Position numbers and translations under genes: made by a program
The notes under the pieces: generated by a model
Databases searched by the model: none
Seen by the model: only the letters and a program-made list of their open reading frames with translations
What the model was told of the DNA's origin: nothing
Shown here: positions 1-10,374 of the stretch, piece after piece
How the letters are laid out: each line of letters begins with the position of its first letter
Numbering within the stretch: the first letter of the stretch is position 1
Origin: Rhodovulum visakhapatnamense
GTDB taxonomy: Bacteria > Pseudomonadota > Alphaproteobacteria > Rhodobacterales > Rhodobacteraceae
Direction: 5' to 3'
Length of the DNA stretch: 64,000 nucleotides
Assembly (NCBI RefSeq): GCF_004365965.1
Contig: NZ_SOEB01000003.1
Location: forward strand, 102,322-166,321

Positions 1-1
1 C

Positions 2-91
2 GCAACCGAAGCAACCGAAGCAACCGAAGCAACCGAAGCAACCGAAGCAACCGAAGCAACCGAAGCAACCGAAGCAACCGAAGCAACCGAA
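2..91 (+). repeat. 9-bp perfect coding tandem repeat (Ala-Thr-Glu)
   Basis: Ten perfect copies of the 9-mer GCAACCGAA run from the second base, with a partial eleventh copy to about base 96. In the open frame they encode (Ala-Thr-Glu)n. The unit is a multiple of three, so copy-number change by slippage would keep the frame. The base before the first copy does not fit the repeat, so this may be its true left end. Confidence 0.95.
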
Positions 92-1870
92 GCAACGTCC
101 GATGCCCCGGCCGCCCCTGTCAACGGTCTTGTCGCACTCCCCGGCACCAGCCGCGTCCCCGTCCTCGCCCCGTCGGTGCCATCGACGCCCGACCCCGCCC
201 CCTCTTCGCGCAACGTCCCTGAGGGGGGCACCGCCTCGACCTCATCGACCGGCAGGGGCGATGCCCGGGCAAGGGCCGCGGGCCAGAGGGCAGACCGGAC
301 AGCCACCGTCCTTGAGGCAAAGACCGGCGGCCCGGCCGACGCAATCCCGGGCCCGCCCCGCGCCGGCAGTCCGGGCGCCCCCGCGCCATCAGGGTCCGCG
401 GCATCGCCAGACGCTGTCGGCCGGGACATCCCGACCTCGGCCAAAGCCGCAGCCAAGGTGCCGATGGCTCGAACCGCCCCGTCCGGCGACGTCTCCGGCG
501 CAGCCTCGATCGAAGGCCCGGCCGCTGTCACCCGACCGGCCGAGCCGGGCCAGAACCGGGCGCCGTCCGGCCCCTCGACCGGGGCGATCCCAACGGCAAA
601 TCCCCTGTCGGAAGCCCCCGAGACCACGCCAGAGGCGACAGGCGCAGCCCCCCAGACTTCTGCGACGCAAACGGAAAGCGGTTCGGCAAGCGCCCTCGGG
701 GGGCATCCGCCCGAAGGCGCCTCGGCACCGCCCGACCTGCTGTCGTCCGGCGCTCGGCTTGGGGGACCGCCACCGGACAGCCGATCCCTGAGCCGCGAAA
801 GCCCGGACCCTCCTGCGCCCACGAAAAGCCCCGTGCCGGACCGGCCTGACACAACCGGGCCGAGAAATCTGCCCGGGGACCGATCCGCGCCGCCGCGGCA
901 GGCGCCGCCGGAGCGGCCGGAGCAGGACGACGCAATGCGGATCGACGGCGCGAAGACGGCCGGTCTTGCGGCGGCGACCTCGCCGAAACCGTCGACGGGC
1001 GCCGCGACCGCGCAGGCGCAGGCCGGAAGCGGCGGGCAATCCGCCGCCAGCCCCGCGGCGCAGGAGGCTTTCCGGTCTCCGGTGGCCCCCCGCGCCCCGA
1101 CGACCGATGCGGCGCGCGACATGTGGGCCGCCGCCCCGGGTCCGGCCCCCGATGGGGCAGACGGCATCGGCACCGCCCCCGCGACAGAGGCGACGACGGG
1201 CACCGGGCAGCAAACCGAAATCCCGGCCCCCGTCGGCCGCGCCGCACCGGCAGCCCCGCCCCGCGAAGCACCGCCCAACGAAGCCCCGCCCAACGAAGCC
1301 CAGTCCCGCGAAGCACCGCGCGAGGGCGGGCCGATCCCGCACGCCCGCCATCGGCAAGACCGTGAGGCGGACGCCGAGGACGCATCGGAAAGACCGTCGC
1401 AGCCTGCCTTCGCGGAGGCCGCCTCCGATGCCCCCGCGGCACCGGACAAAACCGCCCCCGCCGCATCGGCAACGCCCCGGACGGCCGCGCGCCAAAGCGC
1501 GGCCCGGCGGCTGGTTCCCGCTCTTGTCGGGACCCGCATCGGCGGCAGCGACAGCGCCCGGGTCACGCCTGAAACGCTTGACCGGATCGCGGCGCAGCTG
1601 ACATCCGTCCCGCCGCCCGAGATATCGGCCGCACTTGCCTCCGGGGGTGGGGCCGCCCGGGCCGCGGCGCAGGGGCTGCGGCAGGCTGCGCTCGACCATC
1701 CGGGCGGGACCGCTCAGATACTGGCCGGGCTCGCGCCGGAGGACATCGCGCGGCTGATCGCGGCGCTTCTGCCAGAGGGGGCGCAGGCCCTGTCGGACGC
1801 GGTAGCGGCACTCGAGCGCACCGCGCGCGATCCGGTCTCGGCCCGGCGCGCCGTGGCGCGCCCTCCTTGA
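2..1870 (+). CDS. Ala/Pro-rich eCIS tape-measure protein, N-terminal part (5' end outside window)
   Basis: The frame is open from the left edge, so the true start lies upstream. It opens with an Ala-Thr-Glu repeat, runs through about 470 residues of Pro/Ala/Arg/Gly-rich low-complexity sequence, and ends in about 110 ordered, helical-looking residues (VTPETLDRIAAQL, ILAGLAPEDIARLIAALLP). That helical part resembles the short helical modules of contractile-injection-system tape-measure proteins. The frame stops at 1868-1870. The +1 frame continues seamlessly (WRALLEARPVDLEAARALAP) into the gene at 1914, so the two probably form one tape-measure gene broken by a frameshift near 1850. They could instead be two cistrons. 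Family assignment is inferred from that continuity and from the neighbouring ATPase. Confidence 0.6.
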   Translation, partial: ATEATEATEATEATEATEATEATEATEATEATSDAPAAPVNGLVALPGTSRVPVLAPSVPSTPDPAPSSRNVPEGGTASTSSTGRGDARARAAGQRADRTATVLEAKTGGPADAIPGPPRAGSPGAPAPSGSAASPDAVGRDIPTSAKAAAKVPMARTAPSGDVSGAASIEGPAAVTRPAEPGQNRAPSGPSTGAIPTANPLSEAPETTPEATGAAPQTSATQTESGSASALGGHPPEGASAPPDLLSSGARLGGPPPDSRSLSRESPDPPAPTKSPVPDRPDTTGPRNLPGDRSAPPRQAPPERPEQDDAMRIDGAKTAGLAAATSPKPSTGAATAQAQAGSGGQSAASPAAQEAFRSPVAPRAPTTDAARDMWAAAPGPAPDGADGIGTAPATEATTGTGQQTEIPAPVGRAAPAAPPREAPPNEAPPNEAQSREAPREGGPIPHARHRQDREADAEDASERPSQPAFAEAASDAPAAPDKTAPAASATPRTAARQSAARRLVPALVGTRIGGSDSARVTPETLDRIAAQLTSVPPPEISAALASGGGAARAAAQGLRQAALDHPGGTAQILAGLAPEDIARLIAALLPEGAQALSDAVAALERTARDPVSARRAVARPP

Positions 1871-1913
1871 GGCCCGGCCGGTCGATCTCGAGGCGGCCCG
1901 GGCGCTTGCCCCA

Positions 1914-4187
1914 ATGGATGAGAGAACCCGCGCCCTGATCGACCTTGTGGCGCTTGCCGACGCGTCGCCGCGCCGGGCGGCCCCGCCCCCCCCGGCCTTG
2001 CCAGAGACCGAGGCGCCCACGGCATCTGGCCGCGACCGCGCCGCACCTGTCGGCGCCTTCCCTCGCACGCCCCCCGATGCGGCACAGTCCGGCCGGGTGC
2101 CAGAGACGCGGCACGCCACAGCCGCCCCCGAGGCCTCCGCGCCGCAAGCCGGCTCCCCCAGGCGGGCGAAGGCTGCCGCAGACATGCGCCCCGAACCGCC
2201 TGCGTCCGGGCCAGCCGTGGAGGCGCCGCTTGCGGCGCCTCCCGAAGCGGCGCGGCAGGCTGTCTCGGACCGCGCGGCATCCAGGGCCAGCCCAGCCGGT
2301 GGCATGGACGCAGCCGAGCATCCGGACCAACGCCCGCATGCACCGCAGACCGACCGGGCTGGCCCGAGGCCCCGCGAGGCGATGGGGGCACCGGATGGCG
2401 CCGCGCCGGGCGTGACGGGCGTCACGACAGACCTCGTCCCCCCGCCGGGTGGACGGGCGCCGCGCAAGGCGGTCAGCGACAACACCGGGGCCGGCGCAGG
2501 CACCGTGGAGCTTGGCGGCAGGGAACCGCCCGATCGGATGCCGGCTACCGCTACGGACCGCGCAGGGCGCGCGACCGGAACCAGCCCCGGCAGTGCTGCA
2601 TCGCCCGGGCCGGAGAGCGGCCCCGATGTGGTAACTCGCGCGCTTGAGCCCGAGGGCAACATGCCCCGGCATCGCCCGGACGGCAGCTCCGGGACCGACC
2701 GGACAGCGCCGCCCGTTGGCGCGGCACCCGACGGATGGCCCGGCCACCGGCCCGGTGGCGATGCCCGGCCCGCGCCCGAGCCGGCCGGTCCGGCGGACCG
2801 CGGGGACCGGTCCGCTCCGGCCGGACCGGCCGGACACGCCCCTGCGGAGGATCGGCCGACCGCGCCGCCGCAAGGAACCGCCTCCGGATCCCTGCGGGGG
2901 GGCGGCGAAGCGGACCCGTCGCGGACCGAGATCTCCACCGCACCGGATCTTGCCGGATCGCCCTCAGACAAACTGCATGCCGGACCGACCGATCCGGCCG
3001 CGCCGGGGGCGGCCGAAACCGCAGCGCCGGGTCCGGCGACCGATCGCGCGCCAGGCAAGACCGGCAAGGCCCCCGCCGAGGCGGAGAACGCCGCCCTGCC
3101 CCGGGCAGACGCTCCTTCGGAGACGGCAGTCAGATCGGCCGCTGCCCCCCCAGACCCCGACCGTCCCGATCCGGAGGGGGCAGACCGGGACAGCCCCGCC
3201 GAGGCCGCGATGGGCACAGCCAGATCGGCAGAATCGCCCCCGCAGCCGGGCGCGCGGGAGGTGGCGCTGGCCGGGCTTTACGAGGCGGCGCTTGGCGATG
3301 CGGCCGCAACGGTGCGCGGCATGCTGGACCAGATCGCCGAAGCGCTGCCCGCAAGCCTCAAGGGTCCTCTGGACCGCGATGGCCTCGACGCCGCCAAGCT
3401 GGCCGCTGCCGCGGTCGCCGGGCCGGGGCCGGGCGCGGCCGGGCGGGCGGCCGGGGCCTTCCTTGAGGCGCTCGCCTCCGACGATGCAGAGCGGATCGTG
3501 CTGTTGCGCGGTCTGGCCGCCCGGCTTGGCTATGCCGCACCCGCGCCCGGACCGCAGGGCACGCTGCGCCGAACCGCCCGGGCGGCGGTCGAGGATCTGT
3601 TGAGGGCCGCCGGGGCCACGCCCGCCCCCGCACCGGCCCGCGCCGCGCCGCCGGCCGGGATCGCCCGCGAGGCGGCCACGCACAGCCTCACCGAGCGCGC
3701 CGGACTTGTGCTGTTTCACCCCTATCTGCGGATGCTCTTCGACCGGCTCGGGCTGATCGAGGCCCGGCAGATCCGCGCCGATGGCCTGCCCCGCGCCGCT
3801 GCCCTGCTGGCCGCCCTGGCCGAGGCCGCGCCCGCCCCGCGCCTGCCCGACCCGCTGGAACGGCTGCTGCTGGGGCTGCCCGACGGCACCCGGCCCGAGC
3901 CTTGCCCCACGCTGGCCCCCGCGGAAATCGCCCTGATCGACAGCCTGATCCGCAGCGTCATCGGGCAATGGACCCGGCTGGGCAAGACCTCGCCCGAGGG
4001 CCTGCGCGCCACCTTCATCCGCCGCCGCGGGCTGATCGGGACCGACGCGCGCGGCGCGCCCCGGCTGACGGTCGCGCCGGGACCCTTCGACATGCTGCTG
4101 GACGGGCTGCCCTGGGCGCTGGGGCCGATCCGGCTGCCCTGGATGCCCGAGGCGCTGAGCGTGATCTGGAGAAACGCCGATGACTGA
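1914..4187 (+). CDS. eCIS tape-measure protein (Afp14/CIS_TMP type), C-terminal part
   Basis: 757 residues from the first ATG in frame. The frame is open further upstream and joins the preceding ORF by a +1 shift, so the ATG may be internal to a larger gene. Residues 1-440 are Pro/Ala-rich and presumably disordered. From about 440 the sequence becomes helical. The last ~170 residues match the conserved C-terminal module of contractile-injection tape-measure proteins: RAGLVLFHPYLRMLFDRLGL, then the TSPEGLRATFIRRRG block, then PFDMLLDGLPW and the LPWM ending. Such proteins set the inner tube length in phage-tail-like particles. The stop overlaps the start of the AAA+ ATPase by 8 bases, the usual eCIS order. 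The call is firm for the C-terminus, less so for the gene boundaries. Confidence 0.8.
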   Translation: MDERTRALIDLVALADASPRRAAPPPPALPETEAPTASGRDRAAPVGAFPRTPPDAAQSGRVPETRHATAAPEASAPQAGSPRRAKAAADMRPEPPASGPAVEAPLAAPPEAARQAVSDRAASRASPAGGMDAAEHPDQRPHAPQTDRAGPRPREAMGAPDGAAPGVTGVTTDLVPPPGGRAPRKAVSDNTGAGAGTVELGGREPPDRMPATATDRAGRATGTSPGSAASPGPESGPDVVTRALEPEGNMPRHRPDGSSGTDRTAPPVGAAPDGWPGHRPGGDARPAPEPAGPADRGDRSAPAGPAGHAPAEDRPTAPPQGTASGSLRGGGEADPSRTEISTAPDLAGSPSDKLHAGPTDPAAPGAAETAAPGPATDRAPGKTGKAPAEAENAALPRADAPSETAVRSAAAPPDPDRPDPEGADRDSPAEAAMGTARSAESPPQPGAREVALAGLYEAALGDAAATVRGMLDQIAEALPASLKGPLDRDGLDAAKLAAAAVAGPGPGAAGRAAGAFLEALASDDAERIVLLRGLAARLGYAAPAPGPQGTLRRTARAAVEDLLRAAGATPAPAPARAAPPAGIAREAATHSLTERAGLVLFHPYLRMLFDRLGLIEARQIRADGLPRAAALLAALAEAAPAPRLPDPLERLLLGLPDGTRPEPCPTLAPAEIALIDSLIRSVIGQWTRLGKTSPEGLRATFIRRRGLIGTDARGAPRLTVAPGPFDMLLDGLPWALGPIRLPWMPEALSVIWRNADD

Positions 4188-5538
4188 GCCGCGCCCGACC
4201 GATCCCCATGCCGAGGCGCTGAAGGCCGAACTGGGCTGGCTGGCAGAGACCGTCACCGCGCGGCTGACCCATTTCTTCGAGGGCACCGCCACGCCCTTCG
4301 TCCTGCCCGACCCGCCCGCGCTGCCCGGAGACTCGGCACTGGCGCGGCTGATCGACAGCGCGGGCCTCGATGCGCCCGCGCGGCTGGTTCTGGCGCTGGC
4401 GCTGGCACCGCATCTGGCACCCGCGGCGCTTGACCCGTTCTTCGTCAAGAATTCGGCCATCGACCGGGTCTTTTCCGAATTCGGTGCCGCGCGGGGCGAG
4501 GCGCAGGCAGGCGGCCCGGGCTTTGCCCCAAGCGCTGTCACAGCCCTGTTCCTGCTGGGTGGGACCGATGCCGCGGCGCGGATCTCGGCGATGGCGCTGT
4601 TCGCGCCCGACCACCCGCTGCGCGCGGCGGCCGGGCTGACCGTCGGCGCGGTCGCAGAGCCCGGCGGCGCCACGCTTCTGTCGGGGCCGCTGACCCTGCC
4701 GCCGCACCGGGTGCTGACACTGTGCGCGGGGCGCCCGCCCCGGCCCGATTATGCGCCGGGCTTTCCGGCCAAGCGCCTGACCACCCGGCTTGACTGGGAC
4801 GAACTGATCCTGCCGCCAGGCGTCAAGCACAGCATCGAGCATCTGGTCGCCTGGTACGCCCATCGCCACCTGATCCGCGAGGAGTGGGGGCTCGCGCGCC
4901 GCGTCGGCGCCGGGTTCAAGGCGCTGTTCTACGGCCCCCCCGGCACCGGCAAGACGCTGACCGCGGCGATGCTGGGCAAGCGTACCGGGCTCGATGTCTA
5001 CCGGATCGACCTGTCGATGGTCGTGTCGAAATATATCGGCGAGACCGAAAAGAACCTCGCCCAGGTCTTCGACATGGCCGAGATGAACGACTGGATCCTG
5101 TTCTTCGACGAGGCCGACGCGTTGTTCGGCACAAGGGGCCCGTCCGGTTCGGCCAATGACCGCTATGCCAATCAGGAAGTGGCCTATCTGCTGCAGCGGA
5201 TCGAGGACTGCCCCGGTCTGGTGATCCTCGCCACCAACCTGCGCAACAATATCGACGACGCCTTCTTCCGCCGGTTCCAGACGGTTGTGGGCTTTCCCCG
5301 CCCCGATGCGGGACTGCGCCGCGCGCTCTGGGCCAGCATCCTCGACCGGGTGCCGCTGGCGCACGATGTCGATCTCGATGCGCTGGCGCGCGGCCACGAG
5401 ATGGCGGGGGGCGCGATCACCAATGTCGTGCATCACGCCACGATCAGCGCGCTCCGGCGCGGCGCCGATACGGTCAGCGCACATGATCTCGCGCAGGCGA
5501 TCTCGACCGAGATGCGCAAGGAAGGACGCACCGCATGA
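4180..5538 (+). CDS. eCIS AAA+ ATPase (Afp15/Pvc15-like)
   Basis: 452-residue AAA+ ATPase. An N-terminal helical part (1-240) precedes the AAA module. The Walker A motif GPPGTGKT sits near residue 252, Walker B ILFFDEADALFG near 307, sensor 1 in ILATNLRNN, and Arg-finger candidates in DDAFFRRFQ. Together with the preceding tape-measure C-terminus this is the signature pair of extracellular contractile injection systems (Afp, PVC, MAC type), where the ATPase is needed for particle assembly or effector loading. Its start lies inside the tape-measure gene. Its stop overlaps the next start by 4 bases (ATGA), implying a co-translated operon. Sheath, tube and baseplate genes would lie left of the window. 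Confidence 0.88.
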   Translation: MTEPRPTDPHAEALKAELGWLAETVTARLTHFFEGTATPFVLPDPPALPGDSALARLIDSAGLDAPARLVLALALAPHLAPAALDPFFVKNSAIDRVFSEFGAARGEAQAGGPGFAPSAVTALFLLGGTDAAARISAMALFAPDHPLRAAAGLTVGAVAEPGGATLLSGPLTLPPHRVLTLCAGRPPRPDYAPGFPAKRLTTRLDWDELILPPGVKHSIEHLVAWYAHRHLIREEWGLARRVGAGFKALFYGPPGTGKTLTAAMLGKRTGLDVYRIDLSMVVSKYIGETEKNLAQVFDMAEMNDWILFFDEADALFGTRGPSGSANDRYANQEVAYLLQRIEDCPGLVILATNLRNNIDDAFFRRFQTVVGFPRPDAGLRRALWASILDRVPLAHDVDLDALARGHEMAGGAITNVVHHATISALRRGADTVSAHDLAQAISTEMRKEGRTA

Positions 5539-8500
5539 CCAAAGCCCCGCTTCTTTGCCGTCTGGCCCTGATGGCCGCGCTGGCCTGGGCGGCACCCGGC
5601 CCGGCGCGGGCCGATTGCACCGATCTTGCGGCCCTGACCGAGCTGCCGCCCGAAGCGGGCAGCATCGACCAGATCCAGCGCGGGCTGCGCAGCGCGCTGC
5701 GCGACCCCAGCAGATACCTGCGTGACGGCAAGCTTGGTCCCTATACCAAACAGGCGCTGGTGCGGCTCTGCCGGGCGGTGCCGCTGGGGCTGGGGCGCGA
5801 CAGCGTCGCGGGCACGCTGGAACTGGCGGCCGATTATGGCGCGCTGGCGCGGTCCGACGCGCATTGGCAGCCGCGCGCGGTGGCCCCGGCGCTGGCCGCA
5901 CGGCTGGGCGCGATCCCCGAGACCGGCGCGAACCGGCTGGCGCTGCAACTGGCCGGGCCGCCCGCGCTGGCCATCAGCGCGCTTGAGGACTGGCAGAAGG
6001 GTGCGGCCTGCGCAGGCCTGTCCGAGGCCGCCCTGTCGGACGAGGCCCGCGCCGGGCTGGCCGCGCTGACCGCGGTCGGGGCCTGGCCCGACACCGATGC
6101 GCTTTGCACCGGGCTGACCCCGGTCCCGAATGCGCTGGGCGATCGGGCGGTGGCCGCGGCGCTGGCCGCCTATGGCCGGATCGAGGCGGGACTTCCCGGC
6201 GCCGTCGCGCGGCTGGTCTCGCCCGGATTTTCCGACTGGCTGGTGGCCGGACAGGCGACGCGGGTGCCGCGCCTGATGGGCTCGGACGCGGCGGCGGTGG
6301 CGCTGATCGCCGAATACCGGCCGAGCCTCTCGCCCGCCACCCAGGCCGATGAGACCGTCGAGGCGGACGAACCGGCCTCCTGCGCGGAACCGGTCAGCCG
6401 CACCGTGCTGGACTATACCGCCTTCGACGCGGCCGATTACCAGACGCTGATCGCGCCCGTTGACGTCAAGACGGCGCTGGCCGGGCTCGACGGCAAGACC
6501 TTCGCCAGCGCCGAGGACCTCGGTGCCGCCATCGACGCGGCGCTTGGCGGACAGCTCACGCGCTGCGCGCTGGACGAGATCCGCGCGCTGGTCACCGGGT
6601 CCTCGCATCTGGGCCTGCGCTTCGGGCTCGATCCGGCGGCGGCCGCGAACATGGCGCTGAACCCAGATCTGGTCGCGGCCTCGGGCGCGGTGGCGCCCTT
6701 GGTCGGGCTCTCGACCCCGGTGCGCAAGACGCTCGAGGCGGCCGCCGAGGCCGCGATCCGCAAGGCCGTCCGCGCCGAGTTCGAGGTCGAGATCGAGCTG
6801 GCCGCAGACACGCTGGCGGGCGCCGCCGAAGAGATCGTGCCCGGGCTCGACACCCGGCCCGAGGGCGTGCCGGAATTTCCCGAGCTTCCCCTGGGCGCGC
6901 CGCTGGGCGTGACCGACGCCACCGACAGCGCGGTGCAGGCCGCGGTCAAGGACACCGATTTCCAGCAGGCGCTGCTGAATGCCGAGTACGCGCCCGCCCC
7001 CAATGCCGAGGTGCTGAAGGGCGATGTGCGCCGGTTGCTGGACCCGATCGCCGCGCGCAAGGTCGAAGAGATCGTCAGGACCGCGATGACCGAGGTCGAG
7101 GCCGCGATCGACGCGCGCTGGCTTCTGACCCCCGACCTGAGCGCCGCAATCCTCGGGCTCGACGCGGTTGCCGCCGCACAAAGCCTCGACATTCCCGAGG
7201 CGACGGCGCTGGCGCTGGAACAGCTGGTCGGTCTGACCTACCCCAATCAGCGGCTCTTCGCGGCGGCGGTCGAGGCGGTGCCGCCGCCCGTCCCTTATGG
7301 CCAGTTCGAGGCGGTCAAGCGGCAGGCGCGGCAGGCCGCCTTCCGCACCGTGACCCGCGCCGAGGCGCAGGCCGCGCGCTCGGCCGAGGCGCTGGCGCTG
7401 CCGGGCTGCGGCTGCGTCGAGCCGCGGCTCGATCATGCCGAGGTCTATGCCTTCTACCCGTTCTGGATGCTGCCCCGGACGCCCGCCGCCCCCAAGACGG
7501 CGGAGGCAGACAGCGCGCCCGCCGCACCCGACCCGCTGAACCAGGTCGATTTCGGTCTGGTCAGCCGGGTCGCGCTTTACGGCTACGAGATCGCCTATGG
7601 CGAGGGGTCCCGGCGGGCCGACTTTCCCGACGAGTCCGAATGGAGCGCGATGCGGCGCGACTTCGTCCAGGCCGCGCATCGCCACCGTGCCCGCGCCGAT
7701 CTGGCGATCACCCTGACCGGCTGGCAGGACTGGACCGATTTCCAGATCGAGACCGCGGTGCAGCAGATCCTGCGCTTCTCGGCGCCGTTTCCCCGGATCG
7801 CCGACAATACCTTCAAGGCGCTGGCCGAGGGCTTTCCCACGATCTTCGACGCGCCCCGCCCCGACGGGGTGACGCTGATCTTTCGCGGCTATTCCGGCAG
7901 CAAGGACAACGACCCGGCGGCCGGACGGCTGCAGCAGATCGTGTCGCGGGCCCATGAGGGCCTCGCGGCGCGCGGGCAAGGCGTCAATCTGGGGCTCGAT
8001 CTGGACCTGATCGGCAGCGGCATCGACACGCCGCTGATGAACGACCTGCGCGCGATCCTGGTGCCGCCGACCCCGGTCGCGGAACCCGACGACCCCGATG
8101 ACGGCGCCGAGTCCGCCGCCAGCGCCGCGCGCGGCCCCAAGCCGCCGGTCGAGCGCATCCTGATCTTCATGGAACGCCCGACCTCGGACGCCAAGAAGAC
8201 GCTGCGCGCGCGGCTGGAGCATGGCGATTTTCGCGGCCCCGAACGCACCGAGGTGCTGCGCCGGATCGTGCCGGTGCTGCCACCGACCGGCCACCGCGAG
8301 GTCGAGCGCCAGCCGCGCAGCGATCTGGACCCCAACGACCATCCCGAGGATTTCAGCCAGTTCCGGGACGATCTTGTCTATTTCCAGGACAATTTCGGCG
8401 GCATCGGCTTCTGGCCCGCGCCCGACCCGACCGCGGGGGAAAGCGCGGCGCTGCGGCGGATCTTCAACGAGCTCTGGATCGAGCCGGTGCTGCCGGGCTT

Positions 8501-8819
8501 CCTGGCCTCGCTGAGCGTGCTTTGCGCCTGGATCTGCCCGCACCGCGCGGTGCTGCTGACCGGCGCGGCGCTGATCGCGCTGGCGACGGCGGGGCTGGTC
8601 TGGCGGTCGTTCTACAGCGGTGTCGCCGACCGGCTGGCCTTCGGCTGGAAGCTGGCCTGGATCGGCACCGGGCTGGTGATCCTGATCCTGACGGCGCTGA
8701 CGGTCTGCGACCCCGACGCGGTGGTGGCGCCCACGGGACTGGCGGCGACGCTTCTGGGTCTGGCGCTGCTGATCGGCTTCACCGCCTATCAGCGGGCGCG
8801 GAACGGACCGAAGCCCTGA
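5535..8819 (+). CDS. exported eCIS-linked protein: PG-binding-like, GH18-like and C-terminal membrane segments
   Basis: 1094 residues, not recognised as a known eCIS component. It starts with a signal peptide (hydrophobic core LALMAALAWAA, cleavage near ARA-26). Residues 44-80 resemble the peptidoglycan-binding-1 fold (DGKLGPYTKQALVRLC). A long helical middle part follows. Residues about 625-880 look like a degenerate GH18-type TIM barrel (EVYAFYPFWML, VALYGYEIAYGE, GVTLIFRGYSGS, NLGLDLDLIG) without a clear DxxDxDxE catalytic motif. Residues about 990-1090 form three or four hydrophobic helices, so the C-terminus is in the membrane with a large periplasmic body. The 4-base start/stop overlap with the ATPase argues that it works with the injection system, perhaps as an envelope anchor or exit factor. 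That role is inference. Confidence 0.75.
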   Translation: MTKAPLLCRLALMAALAWAAPGPARADCTDLAALTELPPEAGSIDQIQRGLRSALRDPSRYLRDGKLGPYTKQALVRLCRAVPLGLGRDSVAGTLELAADYGALARSDAHWQPRAVAPALAARLGAIPETGANRLALQLAGPPALAISALEDWQKGAACAGLSEAALSDEARAGLAALTAVGAWPDTDALCTGLTPVPNALGDRAVAAALAAYGRIEAGLPGAVARLVSPGFSDWLVAGQATRVPRLMGSDAAAVALIAEYRPSLSPATQADETVEADEPASCAEPVSRTVLDYTAFDAADYQTLIAPVDVKTALAGLDGKTFASAEDLGAAIDAALGGQLTRCALDEIRALVTGSSHLGLRFGLDPAAAANMALNPDLVAASGAVAPLVGLSTPVRKTLEAAAEAAIRKAVRAEFEVEIELAADTLAGAAEEIVPGLDTRPEGVPEFPELPLGAPLGVTDATDSAVQAAVKDTDFQQALLNAEYAPAPNAEVLKGDVRRLLDPIAARKVEEIVRTAMTEVEAAIDARWLLTPDLSAAILGLDAVAAAQSLDIPEATALALEQLVGLTYPNQRLFAAAVEAVPPPVPYGQFEAVKRQARQAAFRTVTRAEAQAARSAEALALPGCGCVEPRLDHAEVYAFYPFWMLPRTPAAPKTAEADSAPAAPDPLNQVDFGLVSRVALYGYEIAYGEGSRRADFPDESEWSAMRRDFVQAAHRHRARADLAITLTGWQDWTDFQIETAVQQILRFSAPFPRIADNTFKALAEGFPTIFDAPRPDGVTLIFRGYSGSKDNDPAAGRLQQIVSRAHEGLAARGQGVNLGLDLDLIGSGIDTPLMNDLRAILVPPTPVAEPDDPDDGAESAASAARGPKPPVERILIFMERPTSDAKKTLRARLEHGDFRGPERTEVLRRIVPVLPPTGHREVERQPRSDLDPNDHPEDFSQFRDDLVYFQDNFGGIGFWPAPDPTAGESAALRRIFNELWIEPVLPGFLASLSVLCAWICPHRAVLLTGAALIALATAGLVWRSFYSGVADRLAFGWKLAWIGTGLVILILTALTVCDPDAVVAPTGLAATLLGLALLIGFTAYQRARNGPKP

Positions 8820-8889: not shown

Positions 8890-10374
<1,485 letters not shown>

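Follow-up and report, generated by a model that had tools for sequence, protein, structure and literature searches.

The genome of Rhodovulum visakhapatnamense (Rhodobacterales), 4.43 Mb in size, carries a locus for a contractile injection system (CIS) in which the genes for the tape-measure protein and an AAA ATPase are followed by that of a 1094-residue protein, considered here as a possible membrane partner of the particle. The window analysed comprises 64,000 nucleotides (assembly GCF_004365965.1, contig NZ_SOEB01000003.1, here C3, positions 102322-166321); coordinates refer to it unless a handle precedes them, genomes being denoted by G and fetched loci by L. The gene (5535..8819, +) was characterised through its open reading frame (ORF), homologue searches and a relative in the PDB. 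Its ATG sits within an ATGA (5535..5538, +), the four bases of which are shared with the stop of the ATPase ORF (4180..5538, +), recognised as Afp15/Pvc15-like by PF00004 (E 1.8e-27), phrog_3757 (E 1.1e-61) and its place in the operon. The opposite strand holds a 1036-aa ORF facing the gene (5433-8543), long chance ORFs being abundant in this high-GC genome. As the frame at 5535-8819 shows third-codon GC bias, and homologues at 17 other loci match its product across the same length (34-96% identity, with 96% for Rhodovulum kholense DSM 19783), it is regarded as the true gene. Neither Pfam, in which no family was matched even at E 1, nor the PHROG profiles gave a match for the protein.

The ORF and its 4-base overlap with the ATPase stop had been described in an earlier, sequence-only reading of this DNA, and the overlap recurs elsewhere: 21 of 21 loci show a start/stop overlap of the form NTGA, as ATGA in 20 and GTGA in one. 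The count covers 18 Rhodobacterales loci together with L099, L100 and L101 from more distant genomes, and includes two near-identical pairs; it leaves out G702 (L102), in which the gene lies behind the tape-measure gene, and G005, which has a broken copy. The trees of the membrane protein and of the upstream ATPase have 16 of 18 splits in common, with a Mantel r of 0.93 (0.84 inside the Rhodobacterales), and none of 5000 permutations was as high, there or in the full set; one row, L052, is represented by a 106-aa ATPase fragment truncated at the locus edge. Both genes, that of the ATPase and that of the membrane-protein homologue, are fragmented into several frames in G005 (L027:6156-9416), which may point to decay of this CIS or to a faulty draft sequence.

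Such coupling could mean that the protein is a membrane partner of the ATPase, serving effector loading or assembly, and not of the baseplate. The overlap at 21 of 21 loci would suit this explanation, yet in G702 the ATPase is divergent and the gene instead follows the tape-measure gene, and the share of the protein predicted to be cytoplasmic is small; a role as ATPase partner is thus regarded as improbable.

Beyond the gene pair, the distribution of the family follows that of the CIS, the presence of which was scored by a match to the tape-measure family CIS_TMP (PF19268). Among 101 relatives, a search with the window protein matched five genomes, and CIS_TMP matched six, namely those five and G050. 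In an order sample of 390 genomes, a five-member profile matched 16, all of them among the 21 with CIS_TMP, and in a phylum sample of 398 genomes, an 18-member profile matched five, all among the 10 with CIS_TMP (nine above the cut-off). One-sided Fisher tests gave 8e-8, 2e-24 and 3e-9 respectively, on the assumption, suggested by the counts and the handles listed, that both searches at each level covered one set of genomes; the values are descriptive, since the samples share genomes (the window's own, for example) and related genomes are not independent. Every homologue shares the strand of a tape-measure match and lies directly downstream of it, usually across a gap that fits one ATPase gene. 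The proposed coupling to an extracellular CIS (eCIS) is therefore well borne out, with homologues found only in CIS_TMP genomes in all three samples (5/5, 16/16 and 5/5), and the wide occurrence of homologues away from CIS genes, which would have contradicted it, was looked for in these samples and not seen. Searches of plasmids and phages by tblastn, with the window protein and with the G702 homologue, found no homologue, and none of either protein was confirmed in viral contigs. The length of the tape-measure ORF was considered as a marker of gene presence and dropped as a rule. Gene-positive loci with long ORFs (~1100-1570 aa; G439, G006, G016, G774, G571, G536, G702) and gene-negative loci with short ones (~440-580; G455, G237, G621, G600, G218) both occur, but the gene is absent from G582 (~1480) and present in G184 and G457 (open frames of 665 and 692).

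The anatomy of the protein points to the cell envelope. A signal peptide had been proposed previously; placed here by eye at residues 1-26 with a cut after A-R-A (5535..5612, +), it agrees with a hydropathy peak at residues 6-24 in the mean of the 18-member alignment (1.83). The same mean shows three C-terminal membrane helices, at residues 1005-1023 (8547..8603, +; 2.21), 1040-1058 (8652..8708, +; 2.38) and 1067-1085 (8733..8789, +; 2.36). "Three or four" helices had been suggested; the peak at 982-1000 that would provide a fourth appears in the single-sequence plot only and is missing from the 18-sequence mean, hence three are retained. The protein ends in a positively charged, conserved tail (8790..8816, +) that is predicted to be cytoplasmic and closes with N-G-P-K-P, and in which G1091, P1092 and P1094 are invariant among the 18 members. 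In the four members counted, positive charge occurs in this tail and in the loop joining helices 1 and 2 and is absent from the helix 2-3 loop, so that, under the positive-inside rule, the bulk of the protein is predicted to be periplasmic (~960 residues), and loop 1-2 and the tail cytoplasmic. Nine cysteines are conserved in 18 of 18 members and two more in 17 of 18, which would suit an oxidising periplasm. In single-sequence plots, three of the four distant homologues also show a signal-like segment and, at the C-terminus, three helices; for the fourth, L101, two helices were called.

The predicted periplasmic part contains two regions of interest. The first is a peptidoglycan (PG)-binding-like segment at residues 44-84 (5664..5786, +), recognised through a distant homologue: the L101 protein passes PF01471 here (25.9 bits, cut-off 23), and profile alignment pairs the segment with it at 88.7% probability. 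The window protein itself has no match to PG_binding_1, L101 alone passing, so that the PG-binding part that had been proposed is supported indirectly, via one distant homologue. The second is a degenerate GH18-like (beta/alpha) barrel at residues 642-963 (7458..8423, +), assigned from the fold comparison of a low-confidence model, of which the catalytic strand would be represented by DGVTLIFRGY (residues 777-786; 7863..7892, +). The GH18 catalytic motif is DxxDxDxE; its inner aspartates are missing in 18 of 18 members, and the position of the catalytic glutamate is E in just eight of 18. Loss of the motif agrees with the degeneracy originally described; the fold itself receives weak support. 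AlphaFold2 was run twice, on the whole protein (window, L009 and L010 sequences; pLDDT 33.7) and on the barrel alone from a single sequence (pLDDT 37), and because confidence was poor neither model is quoted as a structure. For residues ~642-963, the best of the 50 fold matches considered are chitinase-type barrels, including YdhD (3cz8) and 4wiw, with an unrelated fold at rank 9 and Old Yellow Enzyme, amylase and mannanase barrels from rank 14; 9r9a, discussed below, is absent from these 50, an absence that carries no weight. Foldseek gave the barrel-only model 599 matches up to E 10, none of the 50 listed being at or below 0.001. The window protein has no Pfam match to GH18 (PF00704), which is also absent from the seven weak families found among the 18 members. 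A GH18 scan of 11 genomes found matches in G702 only, at positions other than that of the homologue, and the barrel profile did not align with the two G702 chitinases (0.1% probability). The barrel, as judged from these sequences, looks ligand-binding and not catalytic.

These features bear on the suggestion that the protein opens the wall for release, its barrel cutting PG so that particles can exit. The PG-binding-like segment of the distant homologue is in keeping with this, as are the chitinase-type folds at the top of the comparison, among them the spore glycosylase YdhD, and the presence of a GH25 muramidase gene near the CIS locus of G050, which is without the membrane-protein gene. Loss of the inner aspartates throughout the 18 members, with the glutamate position kept in eight only, disfavours wall opening, and a membrane tether would be unusual for a lysin; a release factor is accordingly rated a poor prospect. 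The G050 muramidase gene (L037:11060-11998, -) encodes an N-terminal hydrophobic segment and lies ~1.7 kb from the ATPase, as if this system were released by lysis.

A structure of a relative already exists. When the PDB was searched at E up to 1 with the 18-member profile, a single chain was matched, 9r9a_B (864 aa, 'Uncharacterized protein', E 2.4e-21), in four pieces within profile positions 40-1084. Taken by itself, the first piece (40-142, PG-binding-like) falls short of significance; the alignment skips the later half of the barrel (731-939), and the last piece spans the three helices. The G702 homologue, which is 20% identical to the window protein, matches 9r9a_B far more closely (residues 40-886, E 9.9e-183). 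Like the window protein, 9r9a_B has a PG-binding-like start, CGC and Y-G-F-Y-P-Y-W motifs and a three-helix C-terminal part; it differs in being shorter, and is distant. Seven further CIS parts of G702 were used as PDB queries, and matched 9rce, 9r9h and 9r9n but not 9r9a. Entry 9rce, in which the names 'SalCis12' (for the Afp12-like protein) and 'SalCis10' occur, is the best match for the Afp12-like, Afp11-like, gp25, LysM-type cap7 and tube5 proteins; the tube matches 9r9h and 9r9n, and the cap matches 9r9n ('SalCis16b - cap'). The short fibre-like protein of G702 found only a weak match in the PDB, Bd2133 (8ond), and no SalCis chain was found there with the window ATPase (among the best 60 of 316 matches) or with the C-terminal tape-measure ORF, which had no matches. 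As the accession codes are close and the systems are CIS of the same kind, 9r9a appears to belong to the same study as the SalCis entries, and the family is probably already under study by others, although no publication on 9R9A or SalCis was found in a search that left preprints and most subscription journals outside. The claim that no classical Afp/PVC component has this layout agrees with the lack of a Pfam or PHROG match, but the family is not wholly new, since 9r9a chain B is a relative along its whole length.

The remainder of the locus is that of a CIS of the Afp/PVC/AlgoCIS kind, with sheath, tube, spike, PAAR, gp25, Pvc16, tape measure and ATPase. Upstream of the window, Pfam identifies gp25, spike (Phage_base_V), CIS_tube protein, sheath and Pvc16, and two more tube genes and the PAAR, Afp11-like, short fibre-like and Afp12-like genes were placed by locus comparison and by eye. 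The order runs pvc16, a small ORF, sheath, tubes, cap7, spike, PAAR, gp25, ORF312, Afp11-like, fibre-like, Afp12-like, tape measure, ATPase, membrane protein, and recurs whole or in the fetched stretches of the compared Rhodobacterales loci, with single genes uncalled in some (for example cap7 in L125 and the tape measure in L010). The structural block is inverted in the window genome, L010 and L125. Most of the order is kept in G774, G536 and G702, where ORF312 is uncalled, and in G571 the calls were gp25, Afp11-, fibre- and Afp12-like, tape measure, ATPase and the homologue only, neither sheath nor tube being called across the 20 kb upstream. The C-terminal part of the tape measure (open frame 1806..4187, +; ORF from the ATG at 1914; PF19268 CIS_TMP, E 3.8e-41) is overlapped at its end (ORF 1914-4187) by the ATPase ORF. 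Its probable N-terminal part lies in another frame (1..1870, +), assigned by position only and with no Pfam match, which is open from L021:3595, upstream of the window, to window position 1870. The tape-measure frame (window 1-4187) is apparently split near 1806-1914; R. kholense has a single open frame of 2100 codons, to which the interior aligns patchily (70-77%) and the flanks at 85-89%. On the far side of the membrane-protein gene, the next gene (8890-10338, -) is IMP dehydrogenase-like by eye.

Several further features of these loci were observed. Ahead of its sheath domains, the sheath protein (L020:4879-7062, -) has cadherin-like/Ig-like ones (PF16184, PF17963), with which the surface of the particle may be decorated. 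Within the CIS locus, upstream of the window, there is an eCIS_core (DUF4157) frame (G000:C3:92389-92586, -). Near the locus on the CIS contig, eCIS_core scores are ~34-54 bits in gene-positive genomes and 101-110 in the gene-negative G218, G237 and G455; strong matches elsewhere occur in G050, ~100 kb off, and on other contigs of some gene-positive genomes, and perhaps there are two loading types, by eCIS_core score. In several Rhodobacterales CIS loci, SBP_bac_3 genes lie near pvc16 (L020:8641-9969 (-), just upstream of the window; L026:6404-9768; L117:44-2256; L125:18359-19561), often alongside a gene for a short membrane protein that resembles an ABC permease (below the NCBIfam cut-off), and in L026 the SBP_bac_3 domain is fused with a methyltransferase-like part. 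These genes recall the solute-binding protein (SBP)-like domain of CisA, discussed below, and could form a second sensor module.

Taken together, we give even chances to the protein serving a CIS branch in the Rhodobacterales and some other Pseudomonadota as a partner in the inner membrane, most likely as a dock. A dock or trigger between envelope and particle is the best reading of a membrane protein that is kept with the CIS, has most of its mass predicted to lie at the wall, and has a few conserved residues predicted to be cytoplasmic; what we infer from sequence is the topology, the binding to the wall, the contact with the baseplate and the firing from inside. The signal peptide would export the protein, placing its large cysteine-conserved part in the periplasm, and the three C-terminal helices would hold it in the inner membrane, exposing to the cytoplasm the short loop RSFYSG and the tail NGPKP. 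The PG-binding-like segment and the dead chitinase-like barrel may take hold of the wall or of a glycan ligand, with the cytoplasmic loop and tail contacting the baseplate of a particle built in the cytoplasm, which would stand at the envelope and fire on the dock's signal. Of the three roles offered by the sequence-only reading, anchoring is thus the best supported, anchoring and signalling both appearing to fit the anatomy and the solved relative, and wall opening has lost ground. More tentatively, and leaning against it, we entertain the possibility that the whole 'extracellular' CIS branch of the Pseudomonadota is unreleased, standing at the inner membrane, where a PG-gripping dock with a dead chitinase-like barrel would fasten it to the wall, and firing outward from inside.

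A number of observations weigh against a docked particle. The gene is missing from one of six CIS_TMP genomes among the relatives (G050), five of 21 in the order sample (G218, G237, G401, G425, G455) and five of 10 in the phylum sample (G524, G582, G600, G621, G675, with G524 below the family cut-off), and the 18-member profile aimed at these 11 genomes found no homologue; the contig of G401 stops inside the ATPase, and G425 has a short tape-measure frame with the ATPase absent from the 20 kb fetched. The ATPase of G702 is no same-direction neighbour of the gene. The loci retain the short fibre-like gene, an eCIS-like part fitting released particles, as would the eCIS_core frames present in 27 of 28 genomes searched, many outside the CIS locus. 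In at least five of the 18 members (L010, L024, L042, L043, L045), one or two basic residues are seen by eye in the helix 2-3 stretch, making the charge argument for topology only moderate, and little of the protein is predicted to be cytoplasmic. None of the CIS parts tried as PDB queries, a set without sheath, spike and effector, was found in 9r9a, and the main text of Geller et al. 2021 (PMC8213781), in its available part, does not use 'transmembrane' or 'membrane protein'.

Two other explanations keep the protein at the membrane with no dock. In the first, particles are free, without stable docking, and firing at the membrane, possibly lethal to the producer, follows when the periplasmic domain detects a glycan or damage to the wall. 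CisA of Streptomyces coelicolor, a membrane protein needed for firing that is outside the particle according to the available text of PMC12237407, is a precedent, and a barrel that looks ligand-binding is compatible with sensing, but the layout of CisA differs and nearly all of the window protein is predicted to be periplasmic; a trigger or stress sensor of this kind is considered unlikely, if well short of negligible. In the second, the protein protects the cell against its own CIS, for example by shielding the wall or membrane at the point hit by a stray tube. A predicted envelope location and linkage to the CIS would fit, but the available parts of the CIS literature cited here offer no precedent, and a long layout kept across distant genomes exceeds what is usual for immunity proteins, leaving self-protection very improbable. 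If instead the protein is a dock, docking from inside would alter the view of how this CIS branch fires. The family also leads to an existing PDB structure that is open to immediate interpretation. Whether a CIS works as a toxin syringe set free, a weapon used on contact or a means of self-destruction is decided by its membrane tie, and one marker gene dividing Pseudomonadota CIS loci by membrane partner would make the mode of action predictable from sequence.

Several membrane-linked CIS are already known, and are compared here as described in the available portions of the papers cited. CisA resembles the window protein in being a membrane protein encoded with a CIS, but is single-pass, with a disordered cytoplasmic N-terminus and an SBP-like C-terminal domain (PMC12237407), whereas the window protein has a signal peptide, a large predicted periplasmic part and three C-terminal helices, and no SBP family match in Pfam. 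Hbor_38620, the putative anchor of the haloarchaeal type VI secretion system (T6SS), is also a conserved membrane protein linked to one branch of CIS clusters, and differs by description in its six predicted helices and cytoplasmic domain of ~150 residues (PMC11566945). Cis13 of the Anabaena thylakoid CIS likewise inserts into the membrane as an anchor, but is tail-fibre-like, inside the particle, and has one putative helix (PMC8894136). T6SS subtype iv attaches to the inner membrane at Alg11-like cages, and for AlgoCIS particles anchoring was never observed, as far as the same text reports (PMC8894135). Compared with the chitinase-type GH18 barrels that lead the fold matches (YdhD 3cz8, 4wiw), the window protein has lost the motif, lacks a Pfam GH18 match and is membrane-anchored by prediction. 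TssJLM, the T6SS membrane complex, has no Pfam match in the window protein and is not among the seven weak families of the 18 members. A CIS membrane partner is, as a kind, already known and not categorically new; if the branch does stand docked and fire outward from inside, it would join TssJLM, T6SS subtype iv, the archaeal anchor and the thylakoid fibre as a further, separate way of reaching a T6SS-like mode.

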